From an uncultured Flavobacteriaceae bacterium (GTDB lineage Bacteria > Bacteroidota > Bacteroidia > Flavobacteriales > Flavobacteriaceae), in NCBI GenBank assembly GCA_947494325.1, contig CANLUS010000001.1, positions 806,001 to 870,000 of the forward strand: 64,000 nucleotides of DNA, given 5' to 3'. This document shows positions 8,771-43,366 of this stretch, piece by piece (the first letter of the stretch is position 1; the number at the start of each line of letters is the position of its first letter). The translations under genes were made by a program, and so were the position numbers. The notes beneath the pieces are model-generated. The model did not search any database. It worked only from the letters and a program-made list of their open reading frames with translations, and was not told the DNA's origin.

Positions 8771-8795
8771 GCTAGATCAATCTTATATAAAAAAA

Positions 8796-8823
8796 CCAAG
8801 CTATATCCTATAGTATAGCTTGG
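8796..8823. terminator. Bidirectional terminator between anmK and the lipid island
   Basis: CCAAGCTATA and TATAGCTTGG form a 10-bp stem with an 8-nt loop. It lies in the 84-bp gap between the convergent genes. The A-run before the stem gives a U-run for the minus-strand transcript. Confidence 0.65.
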
Positions 8824-8854
8824 CTTATCAATGTCTATTTAAAAATTATAATCT

Positions 8855-9145
8855 CTAAGCGAACAATTTTGTAAATCTTTTTTTGCCTTGCTTCAATTGT
8901 CCTTTAAAAGTATCTAATGCATCAAAAACGATGTCTTGTTGATTAGATGCTAATTTAAATCCACTTGTGATTGCTTTTGTAGACACTTTTTGCCATTGTT
9001 CAGCGATTGTTAATGACTCATTAATTAGTTCTTCTGTCGACTGTAATGCTATGCTATTAACATTCTTTACACTATTTTTAGTCGTATCTAAAAGGATAGC
9101 AACCTTGTTCTTAACTGTTACTATTTTTGATTTTCTTTCTCTCAT
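8855..9145 (-). CDS. Small phasin-like protein A
   Basis: 96 residues, helical and Lys-rich, with no signal peptide. It is a clear paralogue of the 10209-10484 protein: both share the order ALxSTEE, then WQ(K/D)xSxKA, GxKLAxxQQDIxF and KGxxxxGxKR. This amphipathic helical layout resembles phasins, which coat storage granules or lipid droplets, but I cannot assign a named family. It starts 26 bp after the H1-tailed protein and may be its operon partner. A granule-surface role is inferred from the paralogues and from the lipid-synthesis genes upstream. Confidence 0.6.
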   Translation of the reverse strand: MRERKSKIVTVKNKVAILLDTTKNSVKNVNSIALQSTEELINESLTIAEQWQKVSTKAITSGFKLASNQQDIVFDALDTFKGQLKQGKKRFTKLFA

Positions 9146-9171
9146 CTATATACTATTAAAATGTGATGTTA

Positions 9172-10047
9172 TTATTTGGCTGATTTTGCTTGTTTTGCCC
9201 ATGTAGATAAATCATACATTTTTGCGTTCATGCCAGCATCAGCAAGTATTTTTTCTAATTTTGAAACAGTCGCTTTTCCAAGAACTTCAAAAGATGTAAT
9301 ACCAGCAGCATTTAATACAGTTTCCATTTTAGGGCCGATACCTTTGATGGTCTTTAAATCATCATTTTTACTTACCACTTTTTTCGCTGGAGCTTTTTTT
9401 GCAACAGTTTTCTTTTCAGCAACTTTAGTTACTGTTGCTTTCTTAGCATCTTCTTTTTTGACTACAGCTTTCTTTTCAGTAACTTTTTTTGTTGCTGTTT
9501 TTTTAGCTGGAGGTTTTTTCGATGTCGCTTTTTTTGTTGCTTTTTTCTTTTTTTCTTTTCCTTTTATAGCATCTTCAGTGTAATCCTCAACTTTTTCTTT
9601 AACGTCTTCAATAGTCTCAGTTATTTCCTTTTTCAATTTAGCTGTCATTTTTTCAGCTTTCTTCACGAGAGGGTTATCTGCTACTTCTTTTTTAAGTTTG
9701 GTTGCCATATCATCAGCTTTTTTCGCCAATGGGTTTTTAGCAACCATTTTTTTGGCTTTTTCAATCATTTTAGGATCGTATCCAACAAGATCTTTTAAAC
9801 GCTCAGTACCATTTTCTAATTGACCTTTTATGTTTTCGGCTGTATCAACAAACATGTTGATTTGTTGCTTAGTCAATGGTTCAGTCTTTTTAATCAATTT
9901 AGATGTTAATTTTTGCCATTTCTCTCCCGTTTTTACAGTAGTTTCGATCGCGTCGAAAGAGGCATCAATTAAATCACTATTAATTTTTTTAACGATTGCT
10001 TTAGCCTTAGCAATCTTGTTTTGTTTTTTACTTTTTTTCTTTGACAT
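9172..10047 (-). CDS. Phasin-like protein with H1-like Lys/Ala tail and HHH domain
   Basis: 291 residues, cytoplasmic. Residues 22-90 repeat the phasin-like module of its neighbours (GEKWQKLTSK, then QQINMFVDTAENIKGQLENG). Residues 104-141 hold two copies of a 20-residue unit (NPLxKKAxxMxxKLKKE). Residues 163-227 are a KKA/AKK-rich basic tail like histone H1 or PhaF. Residues 229-275 (TIKGIGPKMETVLNAAGI) are a helix-hairpin-helix domain of the kind found in DNA-binding proteins. By analogy with PhaF of Pseudomonas putida, a granule-to-nucleoid tether is plausible; this is inference. It has its own promoter with tandem heptamers. Confidence 0.65.
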   Translation of the reverse strand: MSKKKSKKQNKIAKAKAIVKKINSDLIDASFDAIETTVKTGEKWQKLTSKLIKKTEPLTKQQINMFVDTAENIKGQLENGTERLKDLVGYDPKMIEKAKKMVAKNPLAKKADDMATKLKKEVADNPLVKKAEKMTAKLKKEITETIEDVKEKVEDYTEDAIKGKEKKKKATKKATSKKPPAKKTATKKVTEKKAVVKKEDAKKATVTKVAEKKTVAKKAPAKKVVSKNDDLKTIKGIGPKMETVLNAAGITSFEVLGKATVSKLEKILADAGMNAKMYDLSTWAKQAKSAK

Positions 10048-10085
10048 GATATATTGTTTAATATGTTTATTTCTTTTGTATGCCG

Positions 10086-10120
10086 CAAAAATACAATGGA
10101 GGAGTTACAAATGAGTTACA
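10086..10120 (-). promoter_or_regulatory. Promoter of the H1-tailed phasin-like gene with tandem heptamers
   Basis: Read on the minus strand: TGTAACT (10114-10120), 4 bp, TGTAACT (10103-10109), 9 bp, then the -7 box TATTTTTG (10086-10093). Repeat starts are 11 bp apart. The layout is the same in the promoter at 10526-10560. Confidence 0.7.
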
Positions 10121-10208
10121 GTGATTGTTTTGCGATATGTAAACCCCAAAAAAAAGACCAAATATTCGATTAAAATACCTGACCTTTCTCTAGTGTTAAC
10201 TTTTTCTC

Positions 10209-10484
10209 TTATTTGGTCAATAATGCTTTAGATCTTTTGAATCCTTTTACTGCGTGTCCCTTTGCAGCTTCTAAAGTACTGAAAAGAATATCTTGCTGAG
10301 TGTCTGCCAATTTTAAGCCACCCTGTAATGCTTTTTTAGACAAATCTTGCCATTGTGCAGTAAACTTGATTGCTCCAGAAACCACTTCTTCTGTAGATTT
10401 TAAAGCAAATGCATTCGCTTTAGATGCTGTTTTTTTGACCGTTTCTACTGTTTTTGTAACTACTTTTTTATTTTTAGTTGCCAT
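10209..10484 (-). CDS. Small phasin-like protein B
   Basis: 91 residues, helical and basic, paralogous to the 8855-9145 protein over nearly its whole length (ALKSTEEVV, AQWQDLSKKALQGGLKLADTQ, FKRSKALL). No signal peptide or membrane segment. The regular amphipathic pattern and the genomic position beside acyltransferase genes suggest a structural protein of a storage inclusion. It is probably transcribed alone, from a well-formed promoter with two TGTAACT repeats, and its start codon follows that promoter directly. Confidence 0.6.
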   Translation of the reverse strand: MATKNKKVVTKTVETVKKTASKANAFALKSTEEVVSGAIKFTAQWQDLSKKALQGGLKLADTQQDILFSTLEAAKGHAVKGFKRSKALLTK

Positions 10485-10525
10485 AATTAAATATATTTTG
10501 TTGTTATTTTTTACTAATTATGGTG

Positions 10526-10560
10526 CAAACATACGTTAGGTAAGTTACAGATGAGTTACA
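10526..10560 (-). promoter_or_regulatory. Promoter of phasin-like gene B with tandem heptamers
   Basis: Minus strand: TGTAACT (10554-10560), 4 bp, TGTAACT (10543-10549), 9 bp, then the -7 box TATGTTTG (10526-10533). Spacings are identical to those at 10086-10120. Confidence 0.7.
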
Positions 10561-10582
10561 AATGAGAAGGTGTTATTAGTTC

Positions 10583-11386
10583 TTAGCTTATTTCTTGTAT
10601 TTCTCTCATCAATTTTTTCGTTTCTGGAAGTGGGTCAACACCGTATTCTTGATCTAAAACTAACTCACATTTCTGAAAAGTTTTAATTGCTTGAGGTCTA
10701 TTTCCTTTAGCTACATAAGCTTGCATCTGCAGCCTGTATGCATCTTCCCATGTTGGATCAATGGCCAATGCATTTTGTGTTAAACGAATGGTTTCTAAAG
10801 GATTTTCCTCTAAAAGTATTTCTGCTAAACTAATATATGCACTCAAAATAAGGAGTTGCGCTTTTTCGCGTTCCTCCGAAGACCAATCTTCATAAATTCT
10901 GTTTGGTAAGTAGGCTCCTTGATATATCGCGATGGCCAATTTATATGCTTTTTTCGCACTAGTGAAATCGTTACCAAATGTTTCGTTACCGATTATAATA
11001 TATTTTTCCAACATGTCGATATCAATCCAAATTTTCTCTAGGTTTAATTGATAACTAACACCTTGTCGAATAACGTATGTTGGTTCTGTTCTTGAAGGCC
11101 TAGCAGGTTCTAGAACTTTATGAATTCCGTGTAATGCCACTTTAAAATCTCTGTCATCACCATCTTCCCATAGATTATCCATAATTGTCTCTTTATGTTG
11201 GGCATTTCGGCGACGATTTGAAATAAGGTATTGTAATAATTGAATAGTTTTATCTCTTCCCCATTCTTTCGAATCTATTTTATCACTTCCTCGCCAAATA
11301 GAAAATTGACCCAACGTTTGAATGCGAATAGGAGCATATTCCTGGAAGGAGATCAATTTTTCTAATTTTTTAATGGATTCAGACAT
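10583..11386 (-). CDS. SARP-like regulator (winged helix + BTAD)
   Basis: 267 residues. Residues about 18-110 fit an OmpR-type winged-helix domain (IRIQTLGQFSIWRGSDKI, KTIQLLQYLI, then LHGIHKVLEP with a terminal YVIRQGVSYQLN hairpin). Residues about 120-267 fit the bacterial transcriptional activator domain, a TPR-like helical repeat (GAYLPNRIYEDW, EDAYRLQMQAYVAKGNRPQAI, DQEYGVDPLPET). This is the minimal SARP architecture, common in Actinobacteria and less so in Bacteroidota. It is the last gene of the putative lipid operon, 8 bp after the coiled-coil gene, and lies next to two promoters with SARP-style tandem heptamers. Direct regulation is inferred. Confidence 0.78.
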   Translation of the reverse strand: MSESIKKLEKLISFQEYAPIRIQTLGQFSIWRGSDKIDSKEWGRDKTIQLLQYLISNRRRNAQHKETIMDNLWEDGDDRDFKVALHGIHKVLEPARPSRTEPTYVIRQGVSYQLNLEKIWIDIDMLEKYIIIGNETFGNDFTSAKKAYKLAIAIYQGAYLPNRIYEDWSSEEREKAQLLILSAYISLAEILLEENPLETIRLTQNALAIDPTWEDAYRLQMQAYVAKGNRPQAIKTFQKCELVLDQEYGVDPLPETKKLMREIQEIS

Positions 11387-11394
11387 GTAAAAAC

Positions 11395-11910
11395 TTATTT
11401 ATTTTTACTGATATCGTCAATTTTTTCAGAGAGTTTTTTGATTTGCGCTGAAAGTTCGTTAATCGATTTTTTAACTTTTTTATAATCTGACCTTGATGCA
11501 TTTCTCCATTCATCAATTTGAACTTTCTCACTAATTTCTTCTCCAATTGAACTAATTTGTCCTTGAATTTGATCTTGGAACTGTGAAAGCTGTTTTTTGG
11601 GATCTTTAATGGTTTCCATCAACACTTTTGGCCCTACTTCTTTCATAGTTTTCCACATGTATAAACTTTTTTGCAGAATACCTTCTTGCTGCTCGGTTGT
11701 TTTATCTTTGGTTGCCTCTTTCGTAAGATTTGCCAATTTTTGTTGCATAAAAATTAAGGCATCATTAAAATCAGTAAAGTTTTGCTCATCACCTTCTTGT
11801 ACATGAGAGATTTTACCTCGCCATTGCACTTTTGATTCACCATCTTCTTCGAAGATATTTTGGTTAAATCTAACCATAAACGAAGCTGTTTGATCTTGTT
11901 TTTTACTCAT
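11395..11910 (-). CDS. Coiled-coil protein, possible granule-associated (PhaE/phasin-like)
   Basis: 171 residues. The N-terminal 60 residues (SFMVRFNQNIF, WRGKISHVQEGDEQNFTDF) form a small domain of the WRGxIxHVQSGE type seen in various bacterial proteins. The C-terminus (ASRSDYKKVKKSINELSAQI and on to residue 171) is a heptad-repeat coiled coil like the C-terminal zipper of PhaI/PhaF phasins and PhaE. No signal peptide. It sits between gpsA and the SARP-like gene, so a role at the surface of a lipid inclusion is possible but unproven. Confidence 0.5.
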   Translation of the reverse strand: MSKKQDQTASFMVRFNQNIFEEDGESKVQWRGKISHVQEGDEQNFTDFNDALIFMQQKLANLTKEATKDKTTEQQEGILQKSLYMWKTMKEVGPKVLMETIKDPKKQLSQFQDQIQGQISSIGEEISEKVQIDEWRNASRSDYKKVKKSINELSAQIKKLSEKIDDISKNK

Positions 11911-11943
11911 AATAGTTTGTATTTTGTATGTAACTATATACTA

Positions 11944-12945
11944 TTATCCAGGCTCTCCTTCAGAACCCACTTCTATTTTTAATAAACCTTTAAATGCATC
12001 GTTGACCGTATTTCCTTCGTAAAGCACTTTATATACTTCTGTCGAAATTGGCATATCAACACCATAGTCTTTTGAAAGTTCCATCACAACTTTTGCGGTT
12101 TTTACACCTTCGGCAACTTCTGACATTTCCTCAATAATTTGATCAAGGCTTTTTCCACGACCGATTTGATATCCAACATGATGGTTTCTACTTTTTGCAC
12201 TTGAACAAGTGGCGACCAAATCTCCCATCCCAGCAAGACCAGAGAAAGTTCTTCGTTTACCTCCCATTGCGACGCCTAGACGGGTAAGTTCTGAGAGCCC
12301 TCTTGTTATAACCGCTGCTCTTGTATTATCACCAGCATTAGCACCGTCACCCATTCCTGATGCGATGGCCATAATGTTCTTTAAGGCTCCGCCGAGCTCA
12401 CAACCAATAACGTCATGATTGGTATAAACTCTAAACAGACCAGAACTAAATACCGATTGTAATCTTTTAGCGATAGTATCGTCGACCATGGCAATTACTG
12501 CTGCGGCTGCTTTACCATAATGTATTTCTTTCGCTAGATTAGGACCGGTAAGAACTCCTGCGGGATGACCGGGTAATTCTTCCTCAATAATTTCGGTCAT
12601 TCTCATTTTTGTTCCCATTTCTAACCCTTTAGCTAAACTAATAATGGGCACCCATGGCCTTATAAAAGGCTTCGCGTTTTTCAAGACTTCTCTGAAGTTT
12701 TGAGAAGGTATTCCCATGACAATGACATCTGCATCTTGCACCGTTTCTTGAATAGAATTTGAAGCTTTTAAATTTTTATGTAATTTGGCATCGGGCAAAT
12801 ACTTTCGATTGGTGCCGTGCTCATTGATTTCCTTAACGGTATCGGCATTTCTTGCCCATAAGATGACTTCACTGTTTTTTGCTGTTAAGGATGCTACCGT
12901 AGTACCCCACGAGCCTCCACCAAGTAATCCAACCTTTAACTTCAT
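11944..12945 (-). CDS. gpsA: NAD(P)-dependent glycerol-3-phosphate dehydrogenase
   Basis: 333 residues, full length. GLLGGGSWGTTVASL is the N-terminal dinucleotide-binding loop; GPNLAKEI, the catalytic-Lys region LGGALKNIMAIASG and the late RNHHVGYQIGRG are GpsA signatures. It reduces dihydroxyacetone phosphate to sn-glycerol-3-phosphate in the cytoplasm, the backbone for glycerolipids. It lies 11 bp after the acyltransferase fusion gene, placing backbone supply and acylation in one transcript. Another gpsA elsewhere in the genome cannot be excluded. Confidence 0.93.
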   Translation of the reverse strand: MKLKVGLLGGGSWGTTVASLTAKNSEVILWARNADTVKEINEHGTNRKYLPDAKLHKNLKASNSIQETVQDADVIVMGIPSQNFREVLKNAKPFIRPWVPIISLAKGLEMGTKMRMTEIIEEELPGHPAGVLTGPNLAKEIHYGKAAAAVIAMVDDTIAKRLQSVFSSGLFRVYTNHDVIGCELGGALKNIMAIASGMGDGANAGDNTRAAVITRGLSELTRLGVAMGGKRRTFSGLAGMGDLVATCSSAKSRNHHVGYQIGRGKSLDQIIEEMSEVAEGVKTAKVVMELSKDYGVDMPISTEVYKVLYEGNTVNDAFKGLLKIEVGSEGEPG

Positions 12946-12956
12946 AATACTATTAA

Positions 12957-15900
12957 TTAATTTTCTAATTCTTTTAAAAATAGATTCCGGACCTCTTCAA
13001 CGTAACTATTGATTTTCTTTAGTTTCCACTCAGAGGTATCAATCGGATCCAAGACAACAACTTCTATATGCGTAGGCTTGAAAAATTTACTCCCTTTTGG
13101 CATCGCCATATATGCATTTTTTATTACAATTGGAACAATAGGAACACCACCTTGTATTGCCAAATGAAAAGCCCCTTTCTTAAACTTGCCGAGTTCTTTA
13201 CTACCACTTCTGGTTCCTTCGGGGGCAATAACGACTGAAATTCCATTTTTTAAAGCTTCCACAGCTGGCTTCATCGCCTCAATGGCCTTCTTTTTATCAG
13301 ATCGATCAATAAAAATAGCTCCCAATGCTTTAAAGATAGGGCCAATAGGTGTGAATTCTAATTCTTTTTTGGCCACCCCCGTAATGTCTTTTCGCAATAG
13401 TTTCATGACAATGAAAAAATCTGCTGAACTTTGATGATTAAAACAAAAAACTGCGGGTCTAAAATCCTCTAAATTTTGTTTCCCTTTTACGTTGATATTT
13501 AATCCCGCCAACTTGGTGCCTAGATCTCCGATACTGGCAAATGTTGTATTCGCGGCTTCCTGTTTAGACATGGTTAAAACACCTTTGGCAATACCTCTAA
13601 GAGCAGATGGATATATAGAAGCGGCCGCTAAAACACTTCGAAATCCATTTACTACAGGCTTTTCTTCGTTGTCATCAAATCTTAATATGGGCCAGTTATT
13701 CTCGAAAGCCAGTTGCGAGAGCCTATTATCAGGGTTTGTTGCATGTGGTTTACCTACAATTTCTAATAGAGGGTAATCTTCAATACTATCGGTGTAGAAA
13801 AAACTTTTAGATAGGTCTATGTCATTTTTTTTAGCATATTTCTTTCCTGCATTCGCTTTACCTTCACCCCAACACATTTCTTTTATAGTACCGGCAAATT
13901 TTCCTTTTTTCACATCCATTTCAGTACAAAAAATATCTTTCACCCCGAGTTCATCGGCTATAGGTTTGATCTGATATATCGTGGCTGCCGAAACAATTAC
14001 GACTTTATGCCCTTTTTCTAAATGAGAAGCAATTAAGGTTCTTGATTCAGGATAAATAGTAGTGGCCAAATGATTCGAATATACCTGCTTTCCGAGGTCA
14101 AAAAAGTCCTTTTCTTTAATACCTTTAACGCCTAGAGCAGATATTTTTGTTAGGACTTCAAAATCGCGATTTCCAGCAGCATAGGCTACGGCAGTTGCAA
14201 ATTGGGATAGTAATTCCTTGGGCGTCGTTTTCCCGCTTAAAATTCTTGACTGCACAAACTTTTTTGCAGAAAAATCATTTATAAGCGTTCTGTCTAAATC
14301 AAAAAATGCTGCAATATGCGGCCCTTCTTCTTGCTTTAAAATTTTGTTTGAGAAGCTATTAAAATCGGCACCTGGCACCAATTCTTTTTCTTCGATATTT
14401 TCTGGATTATCTATTTTCTTAGTTGTTGTTATTTCCAACTGTTGTAAATAGTTTAATCTATCTGTTAAGTCTTCTAATAACTGTGTTAATTGATCAATTT
14501 TATCATAATTGATAGTTCCATCGACGGGCGTTAGATTACTGTTTTTAGCAAAACGTAAGGCACTTATTAAAAAAGGTTTTGACACACTATCTAATCGACT
14601 AATTCGAGTTTGCCAATGTAATTCTCGGCCTTTAAACAGACATAAATCTATGAATTCACTGTCAGAAAATTCATCTTCTAAATCCCAACTTTTAAGGGTA
14701 TGGCATACTACTTTATTAGCTTCCAAATAAATAATTAAAAGGGCTTTAGATACAAAAAGTTCTTGTTTTGCTAAGAGTTTAGCAATGTCCTCTGCTGGGT
14801 TTGAAATAATAGTTCTCCAATTCTTATCGAAAATTGAAAGTTCTGCTTCAATTTCACTACTAAATTGCGGTTTGTTTGTGTAAAAAAATTCGAATTTGAA
14901 TAAGTTTCGAAGGCGCATGATTTCTTCCCAGAAATGGAGAATTCTATCACTGGACGTATCATCTTTTATTTTCACCAATGCCATTTCAATAAAAGCACGA
15001 TGATAGAGATGTCCTGAAGCCATGTTTGCATAATAAGTTGCAGATAAATACTCGCTTGGAGCCAAACTATATTGAACTTTTAAACCGGCCTTACTTTTTC
15101 GAATGATACGAGCACTGAGTAATAAATTTAAGGCTTTTTGAATGGTTACACTGATACTATTTCCACGATCTATAAGAACATCTTTTTTACGATGCCCAAT
15201 ATAATTCATAAGCTTACTAACATTGAGTTCCAATTCTTTTTTGGTGAGCGCAAAATTGTTTAACAAGAGATTGGAAACAAGTGAAACAGTGGTTACTGGT
15301 GTGATCATATTTGCTTTATGAATCAGTTCAAAAGCAAAACGTGGAAGGGTATTTTTATCAGCATAACTATCATCTTCTAAATCTGGAATCACTGCATTAT
15401 GATGTTCGCTGACATCTACGGGCTCTCCAAATCTGATGGCCGCTCTACCATGCTCACTGCCTAGTTTTCGAATATAATTTACAAATGTTTCCAAATTTTC
15501 ATTCTTCTTCTCTTTGCCCTTTCCTTCTTCAGTCATCTCTTTAACATCAGGAATAAGATCATAAACAATTGATACAGGCACATATTTGATAGCGCGTGCA
15601 CTTTGACGTTCACCTTCTAAAATATATTTTAATATGCCCATTTGAGGGTATACTATTTTACCCGTTCTTGAACGTGTTCCTTCTATATTCCAGGTTAAAT
15701 GATCTCCATTATCGATAAGTGAAGCGATATAATGCCTCAAGGCCGCTTTATAGACTTTATTGTCTTTAAAACTTCTTCTAATAAATATGAGTCCAGAATT
15801 TTTTCCTAACTGCTTTACTCCAGGCATGGCTAAATTAATTCCACCAAAAGCGAAAGGAATTGGCATTCCATAGCGGGCTAAAGTATTTATTAAAACCACT

Positions 15901-16199
15901 GTATCTAAATACGTTTTGTGGGTAAGAATGAAGGCGACAGAATCTTGTCGCATTAATTTCATTAATTTTTTTATCTCTTTTGGATCAACATCAATTTTGT
16001 CACCATAGGCTTTAGAAATCATATACTGGAATCCTTTTACAGATACCATATTGGCTACTGGATGTTGATCGGCATACAGCTCTTTAATGCACAACGCTCC
16101 TTCTTTTTGAACCTCCGTTAGGTCTAACTTCTGATTTTTAGCAATTTCTTGAAGTTTATCTTGAAATTTAGGATGGTTAATAATTTTTTCTATGTGCAT
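12957..16199 (-). CDS. GPAT-HAD phosphatase-AGPAT fusion protein
   Basis: 1080 residues from the ATG at 16199; a longer frame to 16310 would overlap the upstream gene by 98 bp and adds no recognisable sequence. Residues about 40-330: PlsB-like acyltransferase (HKTYLD, His94/Asp99; GLIFIRR 136-142; EGTRS 173-177). Residues about 345-590: helical region typical of PlsB C-termini. Residues about 628-830: HAD-IB (SerB-like) phosphatase with DLDRT (Asp634, Asp636), VSAAT and DSIEDYP. Residues about 890-1080: PlsC-like AGPAT with NHQSSAD (His922/Asp927) and EGTRS (994-998). Three consecutive Kennedy-pathway steps, from glycerol-3-phosphate to diacylglycerol, may reside in one chain; that the HAD acts on phosphatidate is inferred. 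Confidence 0.85.
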   Translation of the reverse strand: MHIEKIINHPKFQDKLQEIAKNQKLDLTEVQKEGALCIKELYADQHPVANMVSVKGFQYMISKAYGDKIDVDPKEIKKLMKLMRQDSVAFILTHKTYLDTVVLINTLARYGMPIPFAFGGINLAMPGVKQLGKNSGLIFIRRSFKDNKVYKAALRHYIASLIDNGDHLTWNIEGTRSRTGKIVYPQMGILKYILEGERQSARAIKYVPVSIVYDLIPDVKEMTEEGKGKEKKNENLETFVNYIRKLGSEHGRAAIRFGEPVDVSEHHNAVIPDLEDDSYADKNTLPRFAFELIHKANMITPVTTVSLVSNLLLNNFALTKKELELNVSKLMNYIGHRKKDVLIDRGNSISVTIQKALNLLLSARIIRKSKAGLKVQYSLAPSEYLSATYYANMASGHLYHRAFIEMALVKIKDDTSSDRILHFWEEIMRLRNLFKFEFFYTNKPQFSSEIEAELSIFDKNWRTIISNPAEDIAKLLAKQELFVSKALLIIYLEANKVVCHTLKSWDLEDEFSDSEFIDLCLFKGRELHWQTRISRLDSVSKPFLISALRFAKNSNLTPVDGTINYDKIDQLTQLLEDLTDRLNYLQQLEITTTKKIDNPENIEEKELVPGADFNSFSNKILKQEEGPHIAAFFDLDRTLINDFSAKKFVQSRILSGKTTPKELLSQFATAVAYAAGNRDFEVLTKISALGVKGIKEKDFFDLGKQVYSNHLATTIYPESRTLIASHLEKGHKVVIVSAATIYQIKPIADELGVKDIFCTEMDVKKGKFAGTIKEMCWGEGKANAGKKYAKKNDIDLSKSFFYTDSIEDYPLLEIVGKPHATNPDNRLSQLAFENNWPILRFDDNEEKPVVNGFRSVLAAASIYPSALRGIAKGVLTMSKQEAANTTFASIGDLGTKLAGLNINVKGKQNLEDFRPAVFCFNHQSSADFFIVMKLLRKDITGVAKKELEFTPIGPIFKALGAIFIDRSDKKKAIEAMKPAVEALKNGISVVIAPEGTRSGSKELGKFKKGAFHLAIQGGVPIVPIVIKNAYMAMPKGSKFFKPTHIEVVVLDPIDTSEWKLKKINSYVEEVRNLFLKELEN

Positions 16200-16201
16200 A
16201 C

Positions 16202-16219
16202 TAAGTAATTTATTACTTA
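16202..16219 (-). repeat. Short inverted repeat at an operon junction
   Basis: TAAGTAA, 4 nt, TTACTTA: a 7-bp perfect palindrome covering the stop codon of the upstream hydrolase gene, just before the ATG at 16199. It may be an RNA hairpin tuning translation or processing; it is AT-only apart from one pair and could be chance. Confidence 0.3.
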
Positions 16220-17391
16220 AAAAATAAGTTTGTGAATTTAGAGAGCCCTTTTTCCTTCCAAAACCTTGGAAAAAATAGGTCTTCAATATTATGAACCAAG
16301 CGACTCTCAAATGGTTCGAGATTTAAATTTTCACCTAATGAATGTGCCACTGTAAATAATATGGAAGCATTCGCACCCATACCAATATGACTACCATAAA
16401 CTTCGATATTTTTAATATCACCACGAAGAGTTTCGGCTTCTTGACAATGTTTCCATGGTAAAAGACCATCTGTTTTCGTATAGATACAAGTAATTGGTAC
16501 CTTCGGAATATCCTCAAGCTCTTTTAAAAACTTCTCATTTCGCTCTCGAAGTGTTTTACCTCTTAGAAATTCTAACATTTTTATTAAAGGAGTATTCATG
16601 TTTTTTACGCCCCAAACAGGAGAGCCAATGGTAATTAATTGCGCTACCTTATCAGGATGTCTATTGGCGATTATTTTGGCAAACATGCCTCCGCCACTCC
16701 ATCCAACAAGACTTACCTTTTCTTGATGTTCCTCGTAAATTTCGTCAAGTCTCTCAACTAGATTAGGTAAATATTTAGAATTGAGCATATTCACTCCTAA
16801 ATCCCATTTATAGGTTTTAAAGCCTAGAGAGGTTAGATATTTTCTCACGAAACGGGTAGAAAAATCGTTGCCTAAATAGGGAGGCATAATCAATACAGGT
16901 TTACCTTTTCCCTTTTTACGTTTAGGAATAAAAGGGTAGATATAAAAAATAGACGACCATTCTAAAAGACCGCGAGTTTCAAGAATGGCATTATAAGTTG
17001 GAGGTGCATCAATTTTTTTATTAATACGCTCAATTTCCTCTTTAAAACGATTCACAATAAAATCAACGATTTGTAATTTATCTTTTTTAACCTTTCTTGT
17101 TCTCATCGGTTCAGAGGTCACTTTTTCTAAGATTAACACCAAAGCAATATAATCTCTGTCGGGGCCAAAATCCTCACAAACAACAATGCTATCGGCTAAT
17201 AGTGGCTCTAACTCTTGATGTTTGTCATACTCAACGCTTGATGCGTATTTTTTAATTTCTCTACTATAAGGATGATGATTGAAACTTTTATAAATGAGTT
17301 TTCTAGCCTCTTTAAGTTCTACGCCGCCTTTCATGGCGGTATGAATAGCTAGTTTGGCAAATGATTTGTATAAGGTTTTATTATTTTCCAT
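16213..17391 (-). CDS. Alpha/beta-hydrolase in lipid operon
   Basis: 392 residues, no signal peptide. A helical N-terminal 150 residues is followed by an alpha/beta-hydrolase core: PVLIMPPYLGNDFS, then the nucleophile elbow LVGWSGGGMFAK (GWSGG), an acid region with CIYTKTDGLLPW and a late GSHIGMG holding the candidate His. The nucleophile is Ser, not the Cys of PHA synthases, so a lipase/esterase is likelier than a polymerase. Its position between WS/DGAT-linked genes and the acyltransferase fusion suggests turnover or remodelling of neutral lipids. Exact substrate unknown. Confidence 0.75.
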   Translation of the reverse strand: MENNKTLYKSFAKLAIHTAMKGGVELKEARKLIYKSFNHHPYSREIKKYASSVEYDKHQELEPLLADSIVVCEDFGPDRDYIALVLILEKVTSEPMRTRKVKKDKLQIVDFIVNRFKEEIERINKKIDAPPTYNAILETRGLLEWSSIFYIYPFIPKRKKGKGKPVLIMPPYLGNDFSTRFVRKYLTSLGFKTYKWDLGVNMLNSKYLPNLVERLDEIYEEHQEKVSLVGWSGGGMFAKIIANRHPDKVAQLITIGSPVWGVKNMNTPLIKMLEFLRGKTLRERNEKFLKELEDIPKVPITCIYTKTDGLLPWKHCQEAETLRGDIKNIEVYGSHIGMGANASILFTVAHSLGENLNLEPFESRLVHNIEDLFFPRFWKEKGLSKFTNLFFK

Positions 17392-17398
17392 GATTTAT

Positions 17399-18337
17399 TT
17401 AGTTGGCTACTATTTTTTCGTTGAGCCAATTCAAGACGTCTTGTTCTACTTCTTCTTTATTTACTTCGTTTAACATTTCGTGACGACCACCTTTATAAAG
17501 TTTAAAGGTTAGGTCATTGATACCTGCTTTTTTATACTGTTTTACAACTCGCTTAATTCCTTTTCCCATTTCACCAACAGGATCCTTATCGCCGGAAAAA
17601 ATAAATATAGGCAACTTCTTAGGAGTAGCATTAAAGGTAGCTTGCTTGTTTATTTCTTTACTTCCCTTGAGGATATCTAAAAATATACTTAGTGAGAAGT
17701 CTTCAATTCTATAAGGATCCGCATCAAAAAGATCTACTTGATGCGTATCACTGCTAATCCAATCTACCTTCGTTCTATTCGGCTTAAACTTTTTATTAAA
17801 TTCAGAAAAGAAAACAGACTTTAGTAGATCATTGCTTTTAGTTCTACCCCTAAAAGTACTAATGACTTTGGCACTAAATAAGCCAATTTCACCAAGTCCT
17901 TTCAAAAAGCCACCAGTACCTGATAAAATTAAAGCTTGTAGATCTTCTCCATATTGAATAACGTATTTTCTGCTTAATAGTGCGCCCATACTATGTCCAA
18001 ATAAGATAATTTTTCTTTTAGGATGCTCTTTTAGGATGAGTAATGTTAACTGACGCATATCTTCGATCGCGTCATCAAAATAATTTTCACCGTCATATAC
18101 CCCCATTAAGGCTTTTGATCTTGCCGATCGTCCATGTACTCTATGGTCATTTGCGTAAACATCATACCCTTGTTTTTGTAACAAGCTTGCAATTGGTTGA
18201 TATCTTCCTGCATGTTCACCAACGCCATGAGAGATTTGTACAATTCCTTTTAAGGAAACATTTGCTTCATGCGTCCATTTATAGTAAAAAATAGCGTCGC
18301 CATTGCTGGTTGAAAAGGTGTTCGTTGTACAGTCCAT
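17399..18337 (-). CDS. Monoacylglycerol lipase-like alpha/beta-hydrolase
   Basis: 312 residues. Matches the Hydrolase_4 / monoglyceride lipase group: GIVQISHGVGEHAGRY (oxyanion region), VYANDHRVHGRS, the elbow GHSMGALLSRKYV with the nucleophile Ser, IFSGDKDPVGEMG with the acid, and YKGGRHEMLNEVN with the His. Family knowledge: these hydrolyse monoacylglycerols or lysophospholipids. Cytoplasmic by sequence. It starts 2 bp after the WS/DGAT stop and ends 7 bp before the next hydrolase gene, so all three are one unit. Likely role: mobilising acyl chains from stored lipid. Confidence 0.82.
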   Translation of the reverse strand: MDCTTNTFSTSNGDAIFYYKWTHEANVSLKGIVQISHGVGEHAGRYQPIASLLQKQGYDVYANDHRVHGRSARSKALMGVYDGENYFDDAIEDMRQLTLLILKEHPKRKIILFGHSMGALLSRKYVIQYGEDLQALILSGTGGFLKGLGEIGLFSAKVISTFRGRTKSNDLLKSVFFSEFNKKFKPNRTKVDWISSDTHQVDLFDADPYRIEDFSLSIFLDILKGSKEINKQATFNATPKKLPIFIFSGDKDPVGEMGKGIKRVVKQYKKAGINDLTFKLYKGGRHEMLNEVNKEEVEQDVLNWLNEKIVAN

Positions 18338-18339
18338 GG

Positions 18340-20160
18340 TTATCTTGCTAAAAATTGAGACATGAATTCCATGAATTTAGATTCGTAGGAGTTTTCACCA
18401 TGAAACTTAATGCGTTCTTGGATTTTTAACTCTTTCAATAGAAGTTTTTTGTCATACAATTGCTTCAAATACAGATCTTCGATTTCAACGGTAATATGTG
18501 ATTTCGATCCCTTTCGCTTTCTTACAATGGCTTCTTTTGTTGTAAAATCGATTAGCCAATTAGCTTGTTTAGTATCAAGTTTAACATTGAGTTGATAAAT
18601 ACCTTTGTATTTTTTATGTATTGTGGGATTCTTTTTAAGGTACCTTTTTATGGCGCCGAAGACGGAATCGCTCTCAAATTTTGACACAGTACTCGGTGTT
18701 TTTTTCGCTGCTTTTTTCTTAATGATTTTTTCTAATTCATTAGCAGACTCTCTAATATAACGTGAGAATTTATCTGCGTCTGGCATTGTGTTCGCATCTG
18801 AGGTAGTTGTAATTGTTACCTGACCATTATAGCTAAATGCGGCAATGATTAACCCAAAATTGTCTAAAACAGGGGTGAGTCCAAAAACCGAAACAATTTT
18901 ATGTCCTTTTAAATATAAAAGGCCACGAGGTCCAGGTACGTTGGTAATGGTGACATTAAATGGAGGTCTATGCAATTCTTTTATGTTGTATTTACTATAT
19001 AGACCTGCGGCAAGATTTGCTAAGCCAAAGGGAACAGAATCGGCCATTTTGGCTAAGGTTTTAGCTCCCATCGCTTTATGTCTAGTTTTTCCTTGAATTG
19101 TTTGTTCCTGAATATATTCAAGACGCGCAATAGGATCTTCAATATGAGTGGCAATACGCACCAACATATTGGAGATCTGATTATTTAATTCATCTTTACT
19201 ACTTTCTGTTCTGATCGAAATAGGCACATTGGCTACTAGGGGTTGAGAAGGTAATTTTTCTCGTTCTTGCAAATATCTTCGTATTGCACCCGCACATATT
19301 GCCAATATAATATCATTGATACTTACGCCCATTATTTTTCTTAAAGCATTGATTCGGTCAAAAGATAAAATAGCCGTTCCCCAGGTTCTTTTCGGAGATA
19401 CTGAACCATTAAAGATAGTCTTAGGTACAGGAAAAGAGGGTTTGTTAAAATCCTTTTTCCCATTCAACGTATTGTTAGCTCTACCCTTCAGCATAGAAAG
19501 TATGGTTTCTCCTACTGTGACTGGAATTTTTAAGGGGTTTTTCAAAAATTTATAAGAGCTTTTGAGTAAAAGGCTTAACTCATCCGGTAACGGATCTGGT
19601 TCGTAAGGTTTAGGAGGTTTAATCTTTTCTTCATTATCAAACAAAACACCCATAATACCAACTCCAGAACTTCCATCAATCATGACATGATGTACTTTGG
19701 TTACAATGGCTACTGATCCTTTAGGTATCTGTGAAATTTCATCTAAACCTTCAATAAAGCTGATGGACCATAATGGTCTACGTAAATCTAAAGAACCGCT
19801 AAAAATTGAAGAAGTTTGCTCTCGTAATGTTTTCCAGTTCGCTGGGTCTGGAAGTTTAATTCTATTGATGTGGAGATCTAAATCAAAATTAGGATCATCG
19901 ACCCAATATGGATAATCTAAATCAAAAGGAACGTTCATTAATCGCTGTCGAAACTTCGGAATTAAATGAAGTTTAGAAGCAATAATATCTTTAAAATCTT
20001 GATATTTTAGTGAATCTTCAACAATAATTAGAGACCCTACATGCATAGGACTTGAAGGAGATTCGGCATATAAAAATGTGGCATCAAAACCTGAAATCTG
20101 TTTTGCTGAAGTTTCAAGGGCGTCTTGAACAATATCTTTAATAAGCGTTTTTTTCGCCAT
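18340..20160 (-). CDS. WS/DGAT acyltransferase with C-terminal SCP2-like domain
   Basis: 606 residues, about 140 longer than usual WS/DGAT enzymes. Residues 20-475 are the acyltransferase: SPMHVGSLII near the N-terminus, RPLWSISFIEGL, catalytic HHVMIDG (157-163, the HHxxxDG motif), VSINDIILAICAGAIRRYL and FNVTITNVPGP. Residues 476-500 form a Lys-rich linker. Residues about 505-604 resemble the SCP2 sterol/lipid-carrier fold (YQLNVKLDTKQANWLIDF, then HITVEIEDLYLKQLY and KIQERIKFHG). The enzyme uses acyl-CoA to esterify diacylglycerol or fatty alcohol. No fatty-alcohol-forming gene is nearby, so triacylglycerol is the likelier product. First gene of the operon. Confidence 0.87.
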   Translation of the reverse strand: MAKKTLIKDIVQDALETSAKQISGFDATFLYAESPSSPMHVGSLIIVEDSLKYQDFKDIIASKLHLIPKFRQRLMNVPFDLDYPYWVDDPNFDLDLHINRIKLPDPANWKTLREQTSSIFSGSLDLRRPLWSISFIEGLDEISQIPKGSVAIVTKVHHVMIDGSSGVGIMGVLFDNEEKIKPPKPYEPDPLPDELSLLLKSSYKFLKNPLKIPVTVGETILSMLKGRANNTLNGKKDFNKPSFPVPKTIFNGSVSPKRTWGTAILSFDRINALRKIMGVSINDIILAICAGAIRRYLQEREKLPSQPLVANVPISIRTESSKDELNNQISNMLVRIATHIEDPIARLEYIQEQTIQGKTRHKAMGAKTLAKMADSVPFGLANLAAGLYSKYNIKELHRPPFNVTITNVPGPRGLLYLKGHKIVSVFGLTPVLDNFGLIIAAFSYNGQVTITTTSDANTMPDADKFSRYIRESANELEKIIKKKAAKKTPSTVSKFESDSVFGAIKRYLKKNPTIHKKYKGIYQLNVKLDTKQANWLIDFTTKEAIVRKRKGSKSHITVEIEDLYLKQLYDKKLLLKELKIQERIKFHGENSYESKFMEFMSQFLAR

Positions 20161-20443: not shown

Positions 20444-23308
20444 ATGATTTCTGAATTTAATAACTATACATTAATGTTGTATACCTTTAATGAGGCATAT
20501 AAACGTATTTTTTGTCTTTTGACAATACTTGTTCTTATTCAAAACGGATTTGGACAAGAGTTACCACCAATTCAAAATTTTTCTTCAAAAGATTATGAAG
20601 GCGAGAATCAAAATTGGGCAATTTCACAAAGCTCAGAAAAATTAATATACGTTGCCAACAACCGAGGATTACTTGAGTATAATGGTGCAGAATGGAAACT
20701 ATACGCATTACCTAATGAATCTATTGTTCGATCTGTTCATGTAGTTAACAACCGTATATATACGGGTAGTTTTATGGAATTTGGTTATTGGGAAAAGAAT
20801 GACTTGGGTATACTAGAGTTCAATTCAATATCTCAAGAAATGAATGTTGAAATGATTGAAGATGAAGAGTTTTGGCATATTTTGAATACAGATGACGGCG
20901 TTGTGTTTCAATCATTAAATAGAATATATATTTATGATGAAACAAGTGAAACCGTTAGTACGATAAATTCGTCCACAACGATTACAAATATTTTTAAAGT
21001 CAACGAACTTATTTATTTCCAACGTATAGGTATTGGGATATTTAAAATTGAAAATGGTAGAGCGGTTTTAGTGTTCAACGATAAAATTATTAGAGACGCA
21101 GATGTCATAAATATTTTTCAGGAAGGAGAAGAATTACTTTTGTTAACACGCGACAATGGTTTTTATAAGTCTGAAAATGGAGAATTGTTAAAGTGGGATA
21201 TTGAGTCTAAAGAAGTATTATCAAAGGTTAGTGTGTATAATGGAATTCGATTAAATGATAGTAGTTATGCACTTGGAACAATTTCGGATGGACTTATCCA
21301 GTTGGATTCATATGGAGCGCTTATGTACCATATAGATCAGAATAAGGGTATATCAAATAATACGGTATTGGCGGTTTTTGAGGATATGGATGACAATATT
21401 TGGTTCGGTCTAGATAATGGAATAAGTTATATGAATAGGAAGTCCCCTTTCAAAGAATATAATGATTATAAAGGAATTTTAGGGAGTGTATATACATCTG
21501 TCATTGTTAACAATACTTTATACTTAGGGACCAATCAAGGATTGTTTTATAAGGAATTAGAAGCAGATACAGAATTTAAATTTGTTAACGGCACTCAAGG
21601 TCAAGTGTGGTTTTTGGAGAAGATCAATCAAACCCTATTTTGTGGACATAATCTAGGAACATTTATTATTGATGGAAATCAGGCAACAAAAATATTTGGT
21701 ACGAAAGGAACCTGGAATATCGATATACTTGATGGTAAGCCCAATTTATTACTTCAAGGAAATTATGACGGCTTATATATTCTCGAAAAATCCAATGATA
21801 CCTGGAAATTACGGAATAAAATAAGGGGGTTTAATAATTCGTCAAGATATTTTGAAGCTTTTGAAAATGAAATTTTCGTGAATCATGAGTATAAAGGGGT
21901 TTTTAAAATAGATATTGATGAAAGTTTTAAAAGAGCGATAAATGTTTCCATTGACACTTTACTGAAAGGTTCTAATTCTGGGATAGTAAAATACAATAGT
22001 GAGTTGTTATATGCCTATCAAAAAGGAATTTATAAGTACCAACCTGCGCAGAAAAAATTTGTAAAAGATACAATCTTAAGTAAGGTATATTCTCCTAATG
22101 ACTATATTTCTGGTAAATTAATTGTAGATGACAATAATGTGTTATGGGTGTTTACAAATACCAATGTTGGCTATATCTCCGCCGGCGGTTTAAGAAGTGC
22201 TCCAAAAATTAATAACATTCCGTTAAAAAAAGAAATTAGACGAGGTGTTATTGGGTATGAAAATATTTTAAACCTCCAAGAAAAACAAAAGAATACCTAT
22301 TTGATGGGTACTACGAGAGGGTATATCACAGCGAATTTAAATGCCCTGAACGTAGAGAATTTTCAAGTGCACATAGATGGTGTCATAAAGGGCAGTAACA
22401 AAAAAGATAGTGAGGCGAAAATGAGACTCGATAAGAATTTGAACGGAGATTTTAAAAGTGATGAGAATGATTTAGAATTTTCATATTACACGCCAGAATT
22501 CAAGAAATTTTTGAGTCCAAATTATCAATATCAATTATTAGGTATTTATGATGAATGGAGTTCTTGGACGGAAAGCTCAACCACAGCTTTTGAAAATCTT
22601 CCCTTCGGAAAATATACGTTTAGAGTAAGGGCAAAAATTGGCGACACGTTTTCAAATAATATTGCCACCTATTCTTTTACCATCGCTAAACCTTGGTATA
22701 TTTCAAATTTAATGATCGGGATGTACATTTTAGGGGTGTTGCTTTTCTCTTTGTTTATGCATACTATATACAAAAGGTACTACAGTAAACAACGACACAA
22801 ACTTATTGAAACGAATAAAAGAGAATTGGAGTTAGCTCAACTTCAAAATGAAAAGGAAATAATTAGAATTAAAAACGAACAATTAGAAGTTGATGTTAAA
22901 AATAAAAGTAAAGAATTGGCCGCTTCAACAATGAGTATTATTAAAAAAAATGAGTTGTTGACCACAATTAAAGGGGAACTTTACCATCTAAGTGACAACG
23001 ATTCAGTAAAACCGGTTATAAATATTATCGATAAAAATTTAAGACAAAATGACGATTGGGAATTCTTTCAAGAAGCTTTTAATAATGCCGATAGTGGATT
23101 TCTTAAGAAAGTAAAAACCTTACACCCATCGCTCTCTCCAAATGACCTTAAATTATGTGCATATTTAAGGTTGAATTTATCCTCTAAAGAGATTGCTCCC
23201 CTCCTTAATATTTCATCGAGAAGTGTAGAAATAAAAAGATATAGATTACGAAAAAAACTAAATTTACTTAACAAAGAGAATCTTGTAAACTATATTCTAG
23301 AGCTTTAA
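20444..23308 (+). CDS. Membrane-spanning regulator: Reg_prop propeller, Y_Y_Y domain, LuxR-type HTH
   Basis: 954 residues (an ATG at 20474 is an alternative start). An N-terminal signal segment is followed by a periplasmic region to about residue 745 with two-component-regulator propeller repeats (NRGLLEYNGAEWKLY, DNIWFGLDNGISYM) and a triple-tyrosine-type domain near 640-745. One membrane helix lies at about 754-777, then a coiled coil, then a C-terminal LuxR-like HTH (LSSKEIAPLLNISSRSVEIKRYRLRKKL region, about 895-954). There is no histidine kinase or receiver domain, so sensing and DNA binding are in one chain, as in SusR. It sits directly upstream of the glucan operons and is their likely regulator. 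Confidence 0.85.
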   Translation: MISEFNNYTLMLYTFNEAYKRIFCLLTILVLIQNGFGQELPPIQNFSSKDYEGENQNWAISQSSEKLIYVANNRGLLEYNGAEWKLYALPNESIVRSVHVVNNRIYTGSFMEFGYWEKNDLGILEFNSISQEMNVEMIEDEEFWHILNTDDGVVFQSLNRIYIYDETSETVSTINSSTTITNIFKVNELIYFQRIGIGIFKIENGRAVLVFNDKIIRDADVINIFQEGEELLLLTRDNGFYKSENGELLKWDIESKEVLSKVSVYNGIRLNDSSYALGTISDGLIQLDSYGALMYHIDQNKGISNNTVLAVFEDMDDNIWFGLDNGISYMNRKSPFKEYNDYKGILGSVYTSVIVNNTLYLGTNQGLFYKELEADTEFKFVNGTQGQVWFLEKINQTLFCGHNLGTFIIDGNQATKIFGTKGTWNIDILDGKPNLLLQGNYDGLYILEKSNDTWKLRNKIRGFNNSSRYFEAFENEIFVNHEYKGVFKIDIDESFKRAINVSIDTLLKGSNSGIVKYNSELLYAYQKGIYKYQPAQKKFVKDTILSKVYSPNDYISGKLIVDDNNVLWVFTNTNVGYISAGGLRSAPKINNIPLKKEIRRGVIGYENILNLQEKQKNTYLMGTTRGYITANLNALNVENFQVHIDGVIKGSNKKDSEAKMRLDKNLNGDFKSDENDLEFSYYTPEFKKFLSPNYQYQLLGIYDEWSSWTESSTTAFENLPFGKYTFRVRAKIGDTFSNNIATYSFTIAKPWYISNLMIGMYILGVLLFSLFMHTIYKRYYSKQRHKLIETNKRELELAQLQNEKEIIRIKNEQLEVDVKNKSKELAASTMSIIKKNELLTTIKGELYHLSDNDSVKPVINIIDKNLRQNDDWEFFQEAFNNADSGFLKKVKTLHPSLSPNDLKLCAYLRLNLSSKEIAPLLNISSRSVEIKRYRLRKKLNLLNKENLVNYILEL

Positions 23309-23402
23309 TACTTAACATAGCCTCTTTCCACCACAACATTACCTATACAAGTCCTGTTTTAATTCTTTGTTAAAGTTTTTTGCAGCAACATTAAACAGTG
23401 AG

Positions 23403-23419
23403 TATTTTATAGTAAAATA
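23403..23419 (+). promoter_or_regulatory. Palindrome upstream of glucan operon 1
   Basis: TATTTTATAGTAAAATA: perfect 7-bp arms with a 3-bp centre, in the 225-bp gap before the barrel-glycosidase gene. It is a possible operator for the adjacent regulator. It is AT-rich, so chance is not excluded. Confidence 0.3.
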
Positions 23420-23533
23420 GCTATAATAATGCAAAAATACAGATGTTTTTTTAACATGTATACTTTTTGTTTAGGTGTTTTTTATGGATTTCATAATTTT
23501 CGATACTAAGTTTAGTGTCTCAAATAGAAGCAC

Positions 23534-26500: not shown

Positions 26501-26695
26501 TGGTTTATCCTACCAGATACGAAGATAGGTATTCGCGGTACTTGGCGTTCATTGAATGAATTTTCACCTCGTTTCCTTCCAAATCAAGTAAATCCTGATG
26601 CCTTTCCGCCAATACCTGCGGTAAGTCCAGTTGGTTTTGATAATGGTCAAGAGTGGGAAATTAGAACATACGTACATATTAACATTGGAAAATAA
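23534..26695 (+). CDS. Clan GH-A glycosidase fused to predicted outer-membrane beta-barrel
   Basis: 1053 residues with a Sec signal peptide (cleavage near Ala22-Gln23). Residues about 28-410 form a TIM-barrel glycosidase of the GH2/GH5/GH72-like type: start VNGKEFIINGMNWDY, acid/base Glu172 in LLGNENNYG, nucleophile Glu277 in LMFTEFGADAF, 105 residues apart as expected. From about 440 to the end the sequence alternates polar and hydrophobic residues in many beta-strands separated by Gly/Asp/Asn turns (for example FLTGFTYTVGDLQIAPNFLW, KFAFNLGFVYRHL, DLRLIYKKWKVESAIKI), as in outer-membrane barrels. It ends INIGK without a terminal aromatic, which is atypical. No SusC/SusD pair is present, so it may serve both cleavage and passage of glucan fragments; that is inference. 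Confidence 0.75.
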   Translation: MNTIKNNLLVLALLVSVISTFAQVEKVTVVNNDQGSKLMVNGKEFIINGMNWDYIPIGTNTVNANFWKKSDAVIKAGLDGEMGLLKNMGVNAIRQYTGVPAKWIKYIYENYGIYTMLNDSFGRYGLTLDGVWTPVTDYADPKTQKFLLSEVEKLAKEYKNTPGLLLYLLGNENNYGLFWAGAETEDFPDDEGEKQFIGEKRGRPMYKLMNEAAKIIKAADMSHPVAICNGDVLFIDIVAEECKDVDIYGTNTYRGASFGDMFQVVKNKLNKPLMFTEFGADAFSATKNAEDQESQAYYMVENWKEIYENAAGVGKVGNSIGGFTFQFSDGWWKFGFDDRKNADQHDNNASWSNGGYARDLEGKENNMNEEWFGICAKGPTDARGLYELYPRAAYYALKEAHKFNPYNENTNLESVENHFDDIQLMEAVLKARGDKAALEAKDGGKIKISQLRAEFTTFNTGGNLLTTPSTADPDNITFPNETGFDHMQSYYVGVEGRPSPNMRANVNFNILGNVAANPINEIFYENRGRSISINTNNGEVTLGDANRVQVYNAEFEWKTKDADVKGFYRVGHNHWGYEGDFFGLYPEANYGPNLDIYNGEILGLEIDGKRSFKGLKAAFGPQLWWGANPAFLVKYSKTIKHIDITGIFHEDIDQQGAAVTSIAIPVPKTRRATLYAKRKFGHFGLEVGGIWGGQPLNGREFQFVQGEPGNYVVFNDKINSDDNWGAKAKITYEGGKFNWYALGATAGLVANGGADQTRTFTGWKLKDNGSGNQNSFLTGFTYTVGDLQIAPNFLWQEPLVDAIPNDVGGAGRLRNIQDDPFAVRSNRKTTAGELLLTYDPTPGSWFYEWDNDRAEDAKFAFNLGFVYRHLPTTMDAAIGFFAGSRIGAPFANSVPAQDLWEGSSRIVSKINPDLALIANLYVGNGQSNGSDDRVINRAGGDLRLIYKKWKVESAIKINDWGPYDYHRDFNLTYPVQFMLDISTSLGKPDWFILPDTKIGIRGTWRSLNEFSPRFLPNQVNPDAFPPIPAVSPVGFDNGQEWEIRTYVHINIGK

Positions 26696-26705
26696 TACGA
26701 TCAAG

Positions 26706-28109: not shown

Positions 28110-28136
28110 GCGGTTAATTTTAAAACAAAGAATAAG

Positions 28137-28976: not shown

Positions 28977-29004
28977 AAAGTAAACAATTAACTAATAAGA
29001 AATT

Positions 29005-32010: not shown

Positions 32011-32042
32011 TTTAAAAATTAAAAATATTATTTAAATTGGTT

Positions 32043-32070
32043 AAGGTCGAGAAGTAAAAAACTCGGCCTT
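32043..32070 (+). terminator. Hairpin separating glucan operons 1 and 2
   Basis: AAGGTCGAG and CTCGGCCTT pair over 9 bp (one G.U) with a 10-nt A-rich loop, followed by ATTTTACC. It lies in the 98-bp gap between the binding lipoprotein and the phosphorylase gene. It could be a full or partial terminator. Confidence 0.55.
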
Positions 32071-32108
32071 ATTTTACCATAATATAATAGAAAGAAGATA
32101 TAGTAAAC

Positions 32109-35552: not shown

Positions 35553-35567
35553 CCAATACACGATCAT

Positions 35568-36854: not shown

Positions 36855-36864
36855 GATTAAAATT

Positions 36865-38355: not shown

Positions 38356-38361
38356 CTAACT

Positions 38362-43361: not shown

Positions 43362-43366
43362 ATTTG

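Follow-up and report, generated by a model that had tools for sequence, protein, structure and literature searches.

A conserved operon-like island in a flavobacterium, best read as a triacylglycerol storage locus

Does a flavobacterium carry its own genes for making, coating and re-mobilising storage oil? The question is raised by a gene island in an uncultured Flavobacteriaceae bacterium (GenBank assembly GCA_947494325.1, contig CANLUS010000001.1, positions 806,001 to 870,000). This stretch of 64,000 nucleotides is called the window here. The original prediction read the island as a self-contained system for triacylglycerol synthesis, mobilisation and granule coating. We find that the island is real, conserved and operon-like. 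It is best read as a triacylglycerol storage locus, partly anticipated in print. Its ten genes, all on the minus strand, occupy positions 20160 to 8855, as the original prediction had them, and the gene names given there hold apart from the strength given to ‘phasin’. Lengths are in amino acids (aa).

18340..20160, minus strand: WS/DGAT (606 aa) with a C-terminal SCP2 domain; TIGR02946, PF03007, PF06974 and SCP2 matches
17399..18337, minus strand: hydrolase 1 (312 aa), monoacylglycerol-lipase-like; Hydrolase_4
16213..17391, minus strand: hydrolase 2 (392 aa), N-terminal helical domain and serine alpha/beta hydrolase, putative lipase; PGAP1, marginal
12957..16199, minus strand: GPAT-HAD-AGPAT three-domain fusion (1080 aa from ATG); GPAT_C, HAD, Acyltransferase
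11944..12945, minus strand: GpsA paralogue (333 aa), glycerol-3-phosphate dehydrogenase; NF009098
11395..11910, minus strand: coiled-coil protein (171 aa) of long amphipathic helices with a short beta part at the N terminus; family alignment, low-confidence model
10583..11386, minus strand: BTAD (SARP-type) regulator (267 aa); PF03704
10209..10484, minus strand: phasin-like small protein (91 aa), putative droplet coat; family alignment, helical moment
9172..10047, minus strand: 291-aa protein with phasin-like domain, Lys/Ala-rich tail and helix-hairpin-helix end, putative droplet-DNA tether; small-protein profile
8855..9145, minus strand: phasin-like small protein (96 aa), putative droplet coat; family alignment, helical moment
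8793..8826, minus strand: terminator-like hairpin, 13 pairs and then a T run, 3' of the last gene; hairpin scan

Synthesis and mobilisation genes

The WS/DGAT protein scores 415.5 bits against TIGR02946 (cut-off 309.95), 181.6 against PF03007 (23.6) and 98.1 against PF06974 (20.7), and its SCP2 tail scores 23.3 bits (21.3). The HHxxxDG motif (H157 H158 D162 G163), which we take to be the active-site motif, is invariant in 16 of 16 aligned sequences. A profile search of the PDB matches 7nxg, 6chj and SCP2 structures. This is the one WS_DGAT_C gene in the whole genome.

The fusion joins GPAT_C (200.1 bits, cut-off 25), HAD (111.5, cut-off 27) and Acyltransferase (157.3, cut-off 23) domains in a single frame. 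All 15 aligned sequences keep the HX4D and EGTRS motifs in both acyltransferase domains, as well as the catalytic residues of HAD motif I (two Asp, one Thr). The protein most likely starts at the ATG at 16199 and not at the listed TTG, which overlaps hydrolase 2. The genome holds two more acyltransferase-like matches outside the island, at 35% and 27% identity, which suggest a separate housekeeping route. GpsA scores 498.1 bits against the NCBIfam equivalog NF009098 (cut-off 436). The genome has a further gpsA in a different place, 31% identical to this one, which supports a dedicated copy in the island.

Hydrolase 1 scores 168.8 bits against Hydrolase_4 (cut-off 27), and its residues S116, D252 and H286 are unchanged in all 16 sequences aligned. 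For hydrolase 2 the Pfam match is marginal (PGAP1, 27.1 bits, cut-off 24.3).

Spacing is tight from the synthesis genes through the regulator, with intergenic gaps of 2, 7, 11, 33 and 8 bp, and 13 bp from hydrolase 2 to the fusion ATG. Gaps are wider in the small-protein part (98, 161 and 26 bp). Terminator-like sites number 13 in the scanned region, compared to a mean of 8.0 in shuffles. A consensus promoter scan gives 41 sites with no excess over shuffles (mean 42.7), and a TAnnTTTG scan of the 250 bp upstream of each of the ten genes found none. Three 4-kb blocks that together span most of the island have a GC content of 32.8–36.7%, within the window range of 30.9–39.4%.

Conservation and inheritance of the island

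We compared 16 Flavobacteriaceae loci: the window, L006, L007, L008, L009, L011, G076, G085, G086, G124, G552, G587, G659, G667, G716 and G718. The order WS/DGAT, hydrolase 1, hydrolase 2, fusion, GpsA is kept in 14 of them. The other two are cut by contig ends, L009 within hydrolase 2 and G124 within the fusion. WS/DGAT, both hydrolases and the fusion stand together in all 15 loci that reach the fusion. Because the same gene order recurs in other genomes, the grouping exceeds chance. The whole island is present in L006 and L007, by coordinates apparently the genus members G786 and G785. One extra gene interrupts the run in each of L008, L011 and G085.

The pair of coiled-coil protein and regulator is found in 15 of 16 loci (L009 is too short) and small-protein genes in 13 (the L008 contig ends after the regulator and L009 is again too short). 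The coat and regulator block takes one of two positions. In arrangement A it follows GpsA (six loci: the window, L006, L007, L008, L011 and G085); in arrangement B, the remaining nine loci, it precedes WS/DGAT. In each of the nine B loci, the stretch that separates the small proteins from WS/DGAT holds a relative of a TetR_C_23 protein and one of an ABC1 atypical kinase; the domains were called on the G076 copies and the other loci were scored as relatives. This pair of TetR_C_23 protein and ABC1/UbiB-type kinase can be seen at L034:1091-3067 and at corresponding places in G086, G552, G587, G659, G667, G716, G718 and G124. Plant plastoglobules, which carry ABC1 kinases, offer a parallel. In G085, a frame directly upstream of WS/DGAT (L035:17037-20000, cut by the stretch end) combines FGGY (glycerol kinase) and DAO (FAD-dependent glycerol-phosphate oxidase/dehydrogenase) domains.

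WS/DGAT occurs in 5 of 149 sampled Flavobacteriaceae and in 20 of 395 genomes across the phylum, with the window's genome in both counts. At an E limit of 1e-100, 11 of 397 Flavobacteriaceae have the fusion; among the 395 genomes from across the phylum (E limit 1e-60) it is found in 1, the window's own. Two same-genus members of the 397-genome sample, G119 and G694, are without it. Outside the family, at 13 of the 22 other WS/DGAT places (20-kb stretches, some near contig ends), WS/DGAT has 23–27% identity, and in those 13 stretches the other nine island genes have no match at E 1e-3. On one Saprospiraceae contig, L010, WS/DGAT adjoins the fusion with no hydrolases between them; the contig ends about 330 bp past the fusion.

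Co-occurrence extends to the coat and regulator block. The coiled-coil profile matches in exactly the 5 of 149 genomes that carry WS/DGAT. The small-protein profile finds at least three copies in each of these five and a marginal match (E 7e-4) in a sixth genome, G032. Both profiles were built from loci beside WS/DGAT and four of the five genomes supplied sequences (G124 is in neither profile), so the matches in those four follow by construction.

Trees were built for WS/DGAT and the fusion (15 loci each) and for the regulator (14 loci), and their pairwise distances correlate, with r of 0.90, 0.87 and 0.90. Support for the A/B split is good in the fusion tree (0.94 for the B clade) and weak in the other two (0.27 and 0.60). 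As these are gene trees only, the correlation would fit vertical descent and joint transfer alike. We also compared the stretches around anmK in three genus members (G119, G776 and G781), chosen as distant from the window among the 10 other members with an anmK homologue. No other window open reading frame (ORF) of at least 100 aa matches there, so no insertion boundary is seen.

Two further features of the window lie beyond the island. Divergent from it, positions 20444-39912 hold a Y_Y_Y/LuxR-type regulator and GH2-C, GH16, CBM_4_9/PKD, GH17, GH30 and MFS_2 proteins, from a domain scan that covered part of the ORFs; the run resembles a locus for using beta-glucan of the laminarin type. L006 and L007 keep the first five of these ORFs beside the island. 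A tmRNA gene with tag peptide GENNYALAA lies at 43366-43757.

The coat and regulator block

The 91-aa and 96-aa proteins and the N-terminal part of the 291-aa protein have one domain in common (small-protein profile against the 291-aa protein, 42.6 bits). In domain scans, none of the three has a family match above cut-off. The 91-aa protein reaches 14.5 bits against Phasin_2 (PF09361, cut-off 24.9). Of the 25 proteins in the family, 2 give a Phasin_2 match at E <= 0.1, with PF05597 not among the matches listed. The 291-aa protein reaches 37.8 bits against NCBIfam PhasinPhaH (NF045508, cut-off 250), and this match covers only the Lys-rich tail and the end. A PDB profile search for a phasin link gives a best E of 0.14, to an entry named sC4. 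The term ‘phasin-like’ in the original prediction is apt for size, amphipathicity and position, but the Pfam phasin cut-offs are missed. It is a description and not a statement of family membership.

Mean helical moment exceeds that of shuffled sequences in the 91-aa (z 3.2), 96-aa (3.8) and 291-aa (4.5) proteins and in the C-terminal part of the coiled-coil protein (4.7). The tail of the 291-aa protein is 27% Lys (20–31% across 12 orthologues). A helix-hairpin-helix-like end was seen by eye in 10 of 12 orthologues of this putative tether; a strict pattern script caught 3. The coiled-coil protein, to which the domain scans assign no family, has a low-confidence structural model (mean pLDDT 56.8). 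Its family gives weak matches of a kind prone to low complexity, to ApoA-II in 3 of 14 members and to phasin PF05597 in 1 of 14 (E 0.0075). The regulator scores 62.1 bits against BTAD (PF03704, cut-off 22.1). Its N-terminal Trans_reg_C match (15.4 bits) is below the cut-off of 26.2, so we name it for its BTAD domain and call it SARP-type only in layout.

Polyhydroxyalkanoate (PHA) granules were considered as an alternative target of the coat. PhaC_N, the PHA synthase domain, has 0 matches in the genome, which is 99.39% complete, and a PHA role is therefore rejected. One of 14 control genomes (Caulobacter) has a PhaC_N match. The island proteins resemble PHA phasins in being small, amphipathic and present in several copies, one with a basic tail, as in PhaF and PhaM; they differ in missing the phasin cut-offs and in belonging to a genome without a PhaC_N match.

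Proposed function, alternatives and known systems

From what is observed (the genes present, their intact motifs and operon-like spacing, the synteny across loci and the co-occurrence), we infer the following biochemical and cellular steps. GpsA would convert dihydroxyacetone phosphate to glycerol-3-phosphate. The fusion would acylate this twice (GPAT, AGPAT) and its HAD domain would remove the phosphate, giving diacylglycerol. WS/DGAT would add the third acyl chain from acyl-CoA, and its SCP2 tail may hold or feed lipid. The three small amphipathic proteins would coat the droplet, and the one with a Lys/Ala-rich tail may tie it to DNA. The hydrolases would release fatty acids again, hydrolase 2 from triacyl- or diacylglycerol and hydrolase 1 from monoacylglycerol. 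The BTAD protein may control the coat genes and perhaps the whole operon. Judged from sequence, we consider it likely that the island makes, coats and re-mobilises triacylglycerol as a storage organelle. The synthesis and mobilisation part of the original prediction fits the gene content, intact motifs and conserved synteny, and stays at the level of inference.

Several points weigh against this reading. No acyl-CoA synthetase is among the ten genes, so ‘self-contained’ was too strong. Mycobacterial PlsB2, a relative of the GPAT part of the fusion, acts in two orders (PMC10593935), and sequence does not fix the acylation order of the fusion. Nor does it fix the hydrolase substrates. In a PDB search with hydrolase 1, generic alpha/beta hydrolases (5o7g, 6khk) come best and monoglyceride lipases such as 6eic next; the protein is closer to the generic enzymes. 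The small proteins are under every phasin cut-off, and control enzymes also have raised helical moments (GpsA z 2.8, WS/DGAT z 1.6). L011 has no small coat gene within 1.6 kb after the regulator and was counted as a miss. Independent evidence for co-occurrence consists of the absences elsewhere and the G124 matches only.

The main product could instead be wax esters, with WS/DGAT joining acyl-CoA to fatty alcohols and the fusion supplying only phospholipid precursors. WS/DGAT enzymes as a class can make both triacylglycerol and wax esters. We think this quite improbable given that the fusion itself would yield diacylglycerol and sits with its own GpsA, and that no reductase lies within the island. 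PF07993, which we take to mark fatty acyl-CoA reductases, matches 6 open frames of the genome (243–361 aa) and is uninformative here because 14 of 14 control genomes match too. Very improbable, in our view, is a reading without droplets, in which the fusion serves as an alternative route to phospholipids and the product of WS/DGAT is an unrelated ester. PlsB/PlsC-type enzymes do usually serve phospholipid synthesis. The two acyltransferase-like matches elsewhere point to a housekeeping route apart from the island, though, and the HAD domain would consume phosphatidic acid; WS/DGAT, the hydrolases and the fusion are also linked in 15 of 16 Flavobacteriaceae loci, although not in the Saprospiraceae contig.

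A different alternative accepts triacylglycerol synthesis but takes the small Lys-rich proteins, the coiled-coil protein and the regulator as a module for the nucleoid or for stress whose linkage to synthesis is incidental. The missed phasin cut-offs fit this, as do weak similarities of the 291-aa protein to the H1-like HC2 (23.4 bits) and HHH_5 (21.1 bits) domains, both below cut-off, and the block shifts as a unit relative to the synthesis block. We consider it unlikely: the linkage outlasts the rearrangement, and among the 144 sampled genomes without WS/DGAT the coiled-coil protein is found in 0 and the small proteins are not found in 143.

Known systems cover parts of the proposed triacylglycerol island. 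A survey of WS/DGAT enzymes (PLoS One 2023, PMC10351704) reports them in 3% of Bacteroidota genomes. It describes a Bacteroidota type of 613 +/- 15 aa, with SCP2 detected in 2 of 4 metagenomic sequences and an AGPAT/hydrolase gene nearby, and notes that seven flavobacterial genera have homologues of similar length. The island is like this type in length, SCP2 tail and AGPAT/hydrolase neighbour. The survey calls neutral-lipid storage in Bacteroidota unexplored and AGPAT-HAD enzymes still to be elucidated. The passages compared here make no mention, for Bacteroidota, of the fusion, GpsA, the hydrolase pair, the regulator or coat-like genes; its Figure S9B lies outside this comparison. In the open-licence literature we found no Bacteroidota description of the fusion, hydrolase pair, dedicated GpsA or coat and regulator block, and a paper on droplets in gut bacteria (PMC10019568) contains no word beginning ‘Bacteroid’. 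The caution of the original prediction about novelty was well placed: the WS/DGAT with SCP2 and an AGPAT/hydrolase neighbour was already in print. New and testable are the single-chain enzyme and the co-inherited coat and regulator block.

Outside Bacteroidota, Mycobacterium tuberculosis has GPAT, a PlsC-type enzyme, WS/DGAT and an esterase side by side (Rv2482c-Rv2486, PMC10699116), in print much as the original prediction stated (plsB2, HAD-PlsC, WS/DGAT and lipQ). In Rhodococcus jostii RHA1, atf9, plsB and an AGPAT-HAD gene (plsC) form one operon (as told in PMC10351704). Both clusters hold the same kinds of enzyme as the island, but their acyltransferases are separate genes. On a Mycobacterium paragordonae plasmid, the two corresponding parts are separate genes and align with the fusion at 29% and 35%; neither window hydrolase matches among the five genes compared, and no coat and regulator block like that of the island is annotated in the stretch. 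Gammaproteobacterial clusters (Arenicella, Woeseia) combine WS/DGAT with GPAT, PAP/AGPAT, alpha/beta hydrolase, lipase or GpsA, varying by member (PMC10351704). By description, which is the level of this comparison, these Kennedy-pathway clusters are similar, with neither a GPAT-HAD-AGPAT fusion nor coat genes mentioned in that account.

A parallel to the putative tether is MLDS of R. jostii RHA1, a droplet protein with a Lys-rich DNA-binding C terminus whose operon also holds the regulator MLDSR (PMC5504291). The 291-aa protein recalls MLDS in its layout (Lys-rich tail, regulator in the operon), a likeness drawn in words only. MLDSR has a helix-turn-helix of another type than the island's regulator, and most tether proteins of the window type end helix-hairpin-helix-like. 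Tentatively, and with clearly less confidence than for triacylglycerol storage as such, we suggest that the coiled-coil protein, regulator and three small proteins might form a coat and nucleoid-tether system of their own, unrelated to known phasins and to MLDS. The regulator, or the TetR-type protein and ABC1 kinase, might sense the droplet surface or lipid state. Together with the three-in-one enzyme, this might amount to a Bacteroidota-specific oil organelle.

Oil storage has received very little study in the mostly marine group to which this bacterium belongs. Being compact and conserved, with a fused enzyme and a candidate coat and regulator set, the island would make the storage question directly testable in flavobacteria. 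It would offer a single-chain route from glycerol-3-phosphate to diacylglycerol, and a droplet coat in bacteria that may be independent of the one in actinobacteria.

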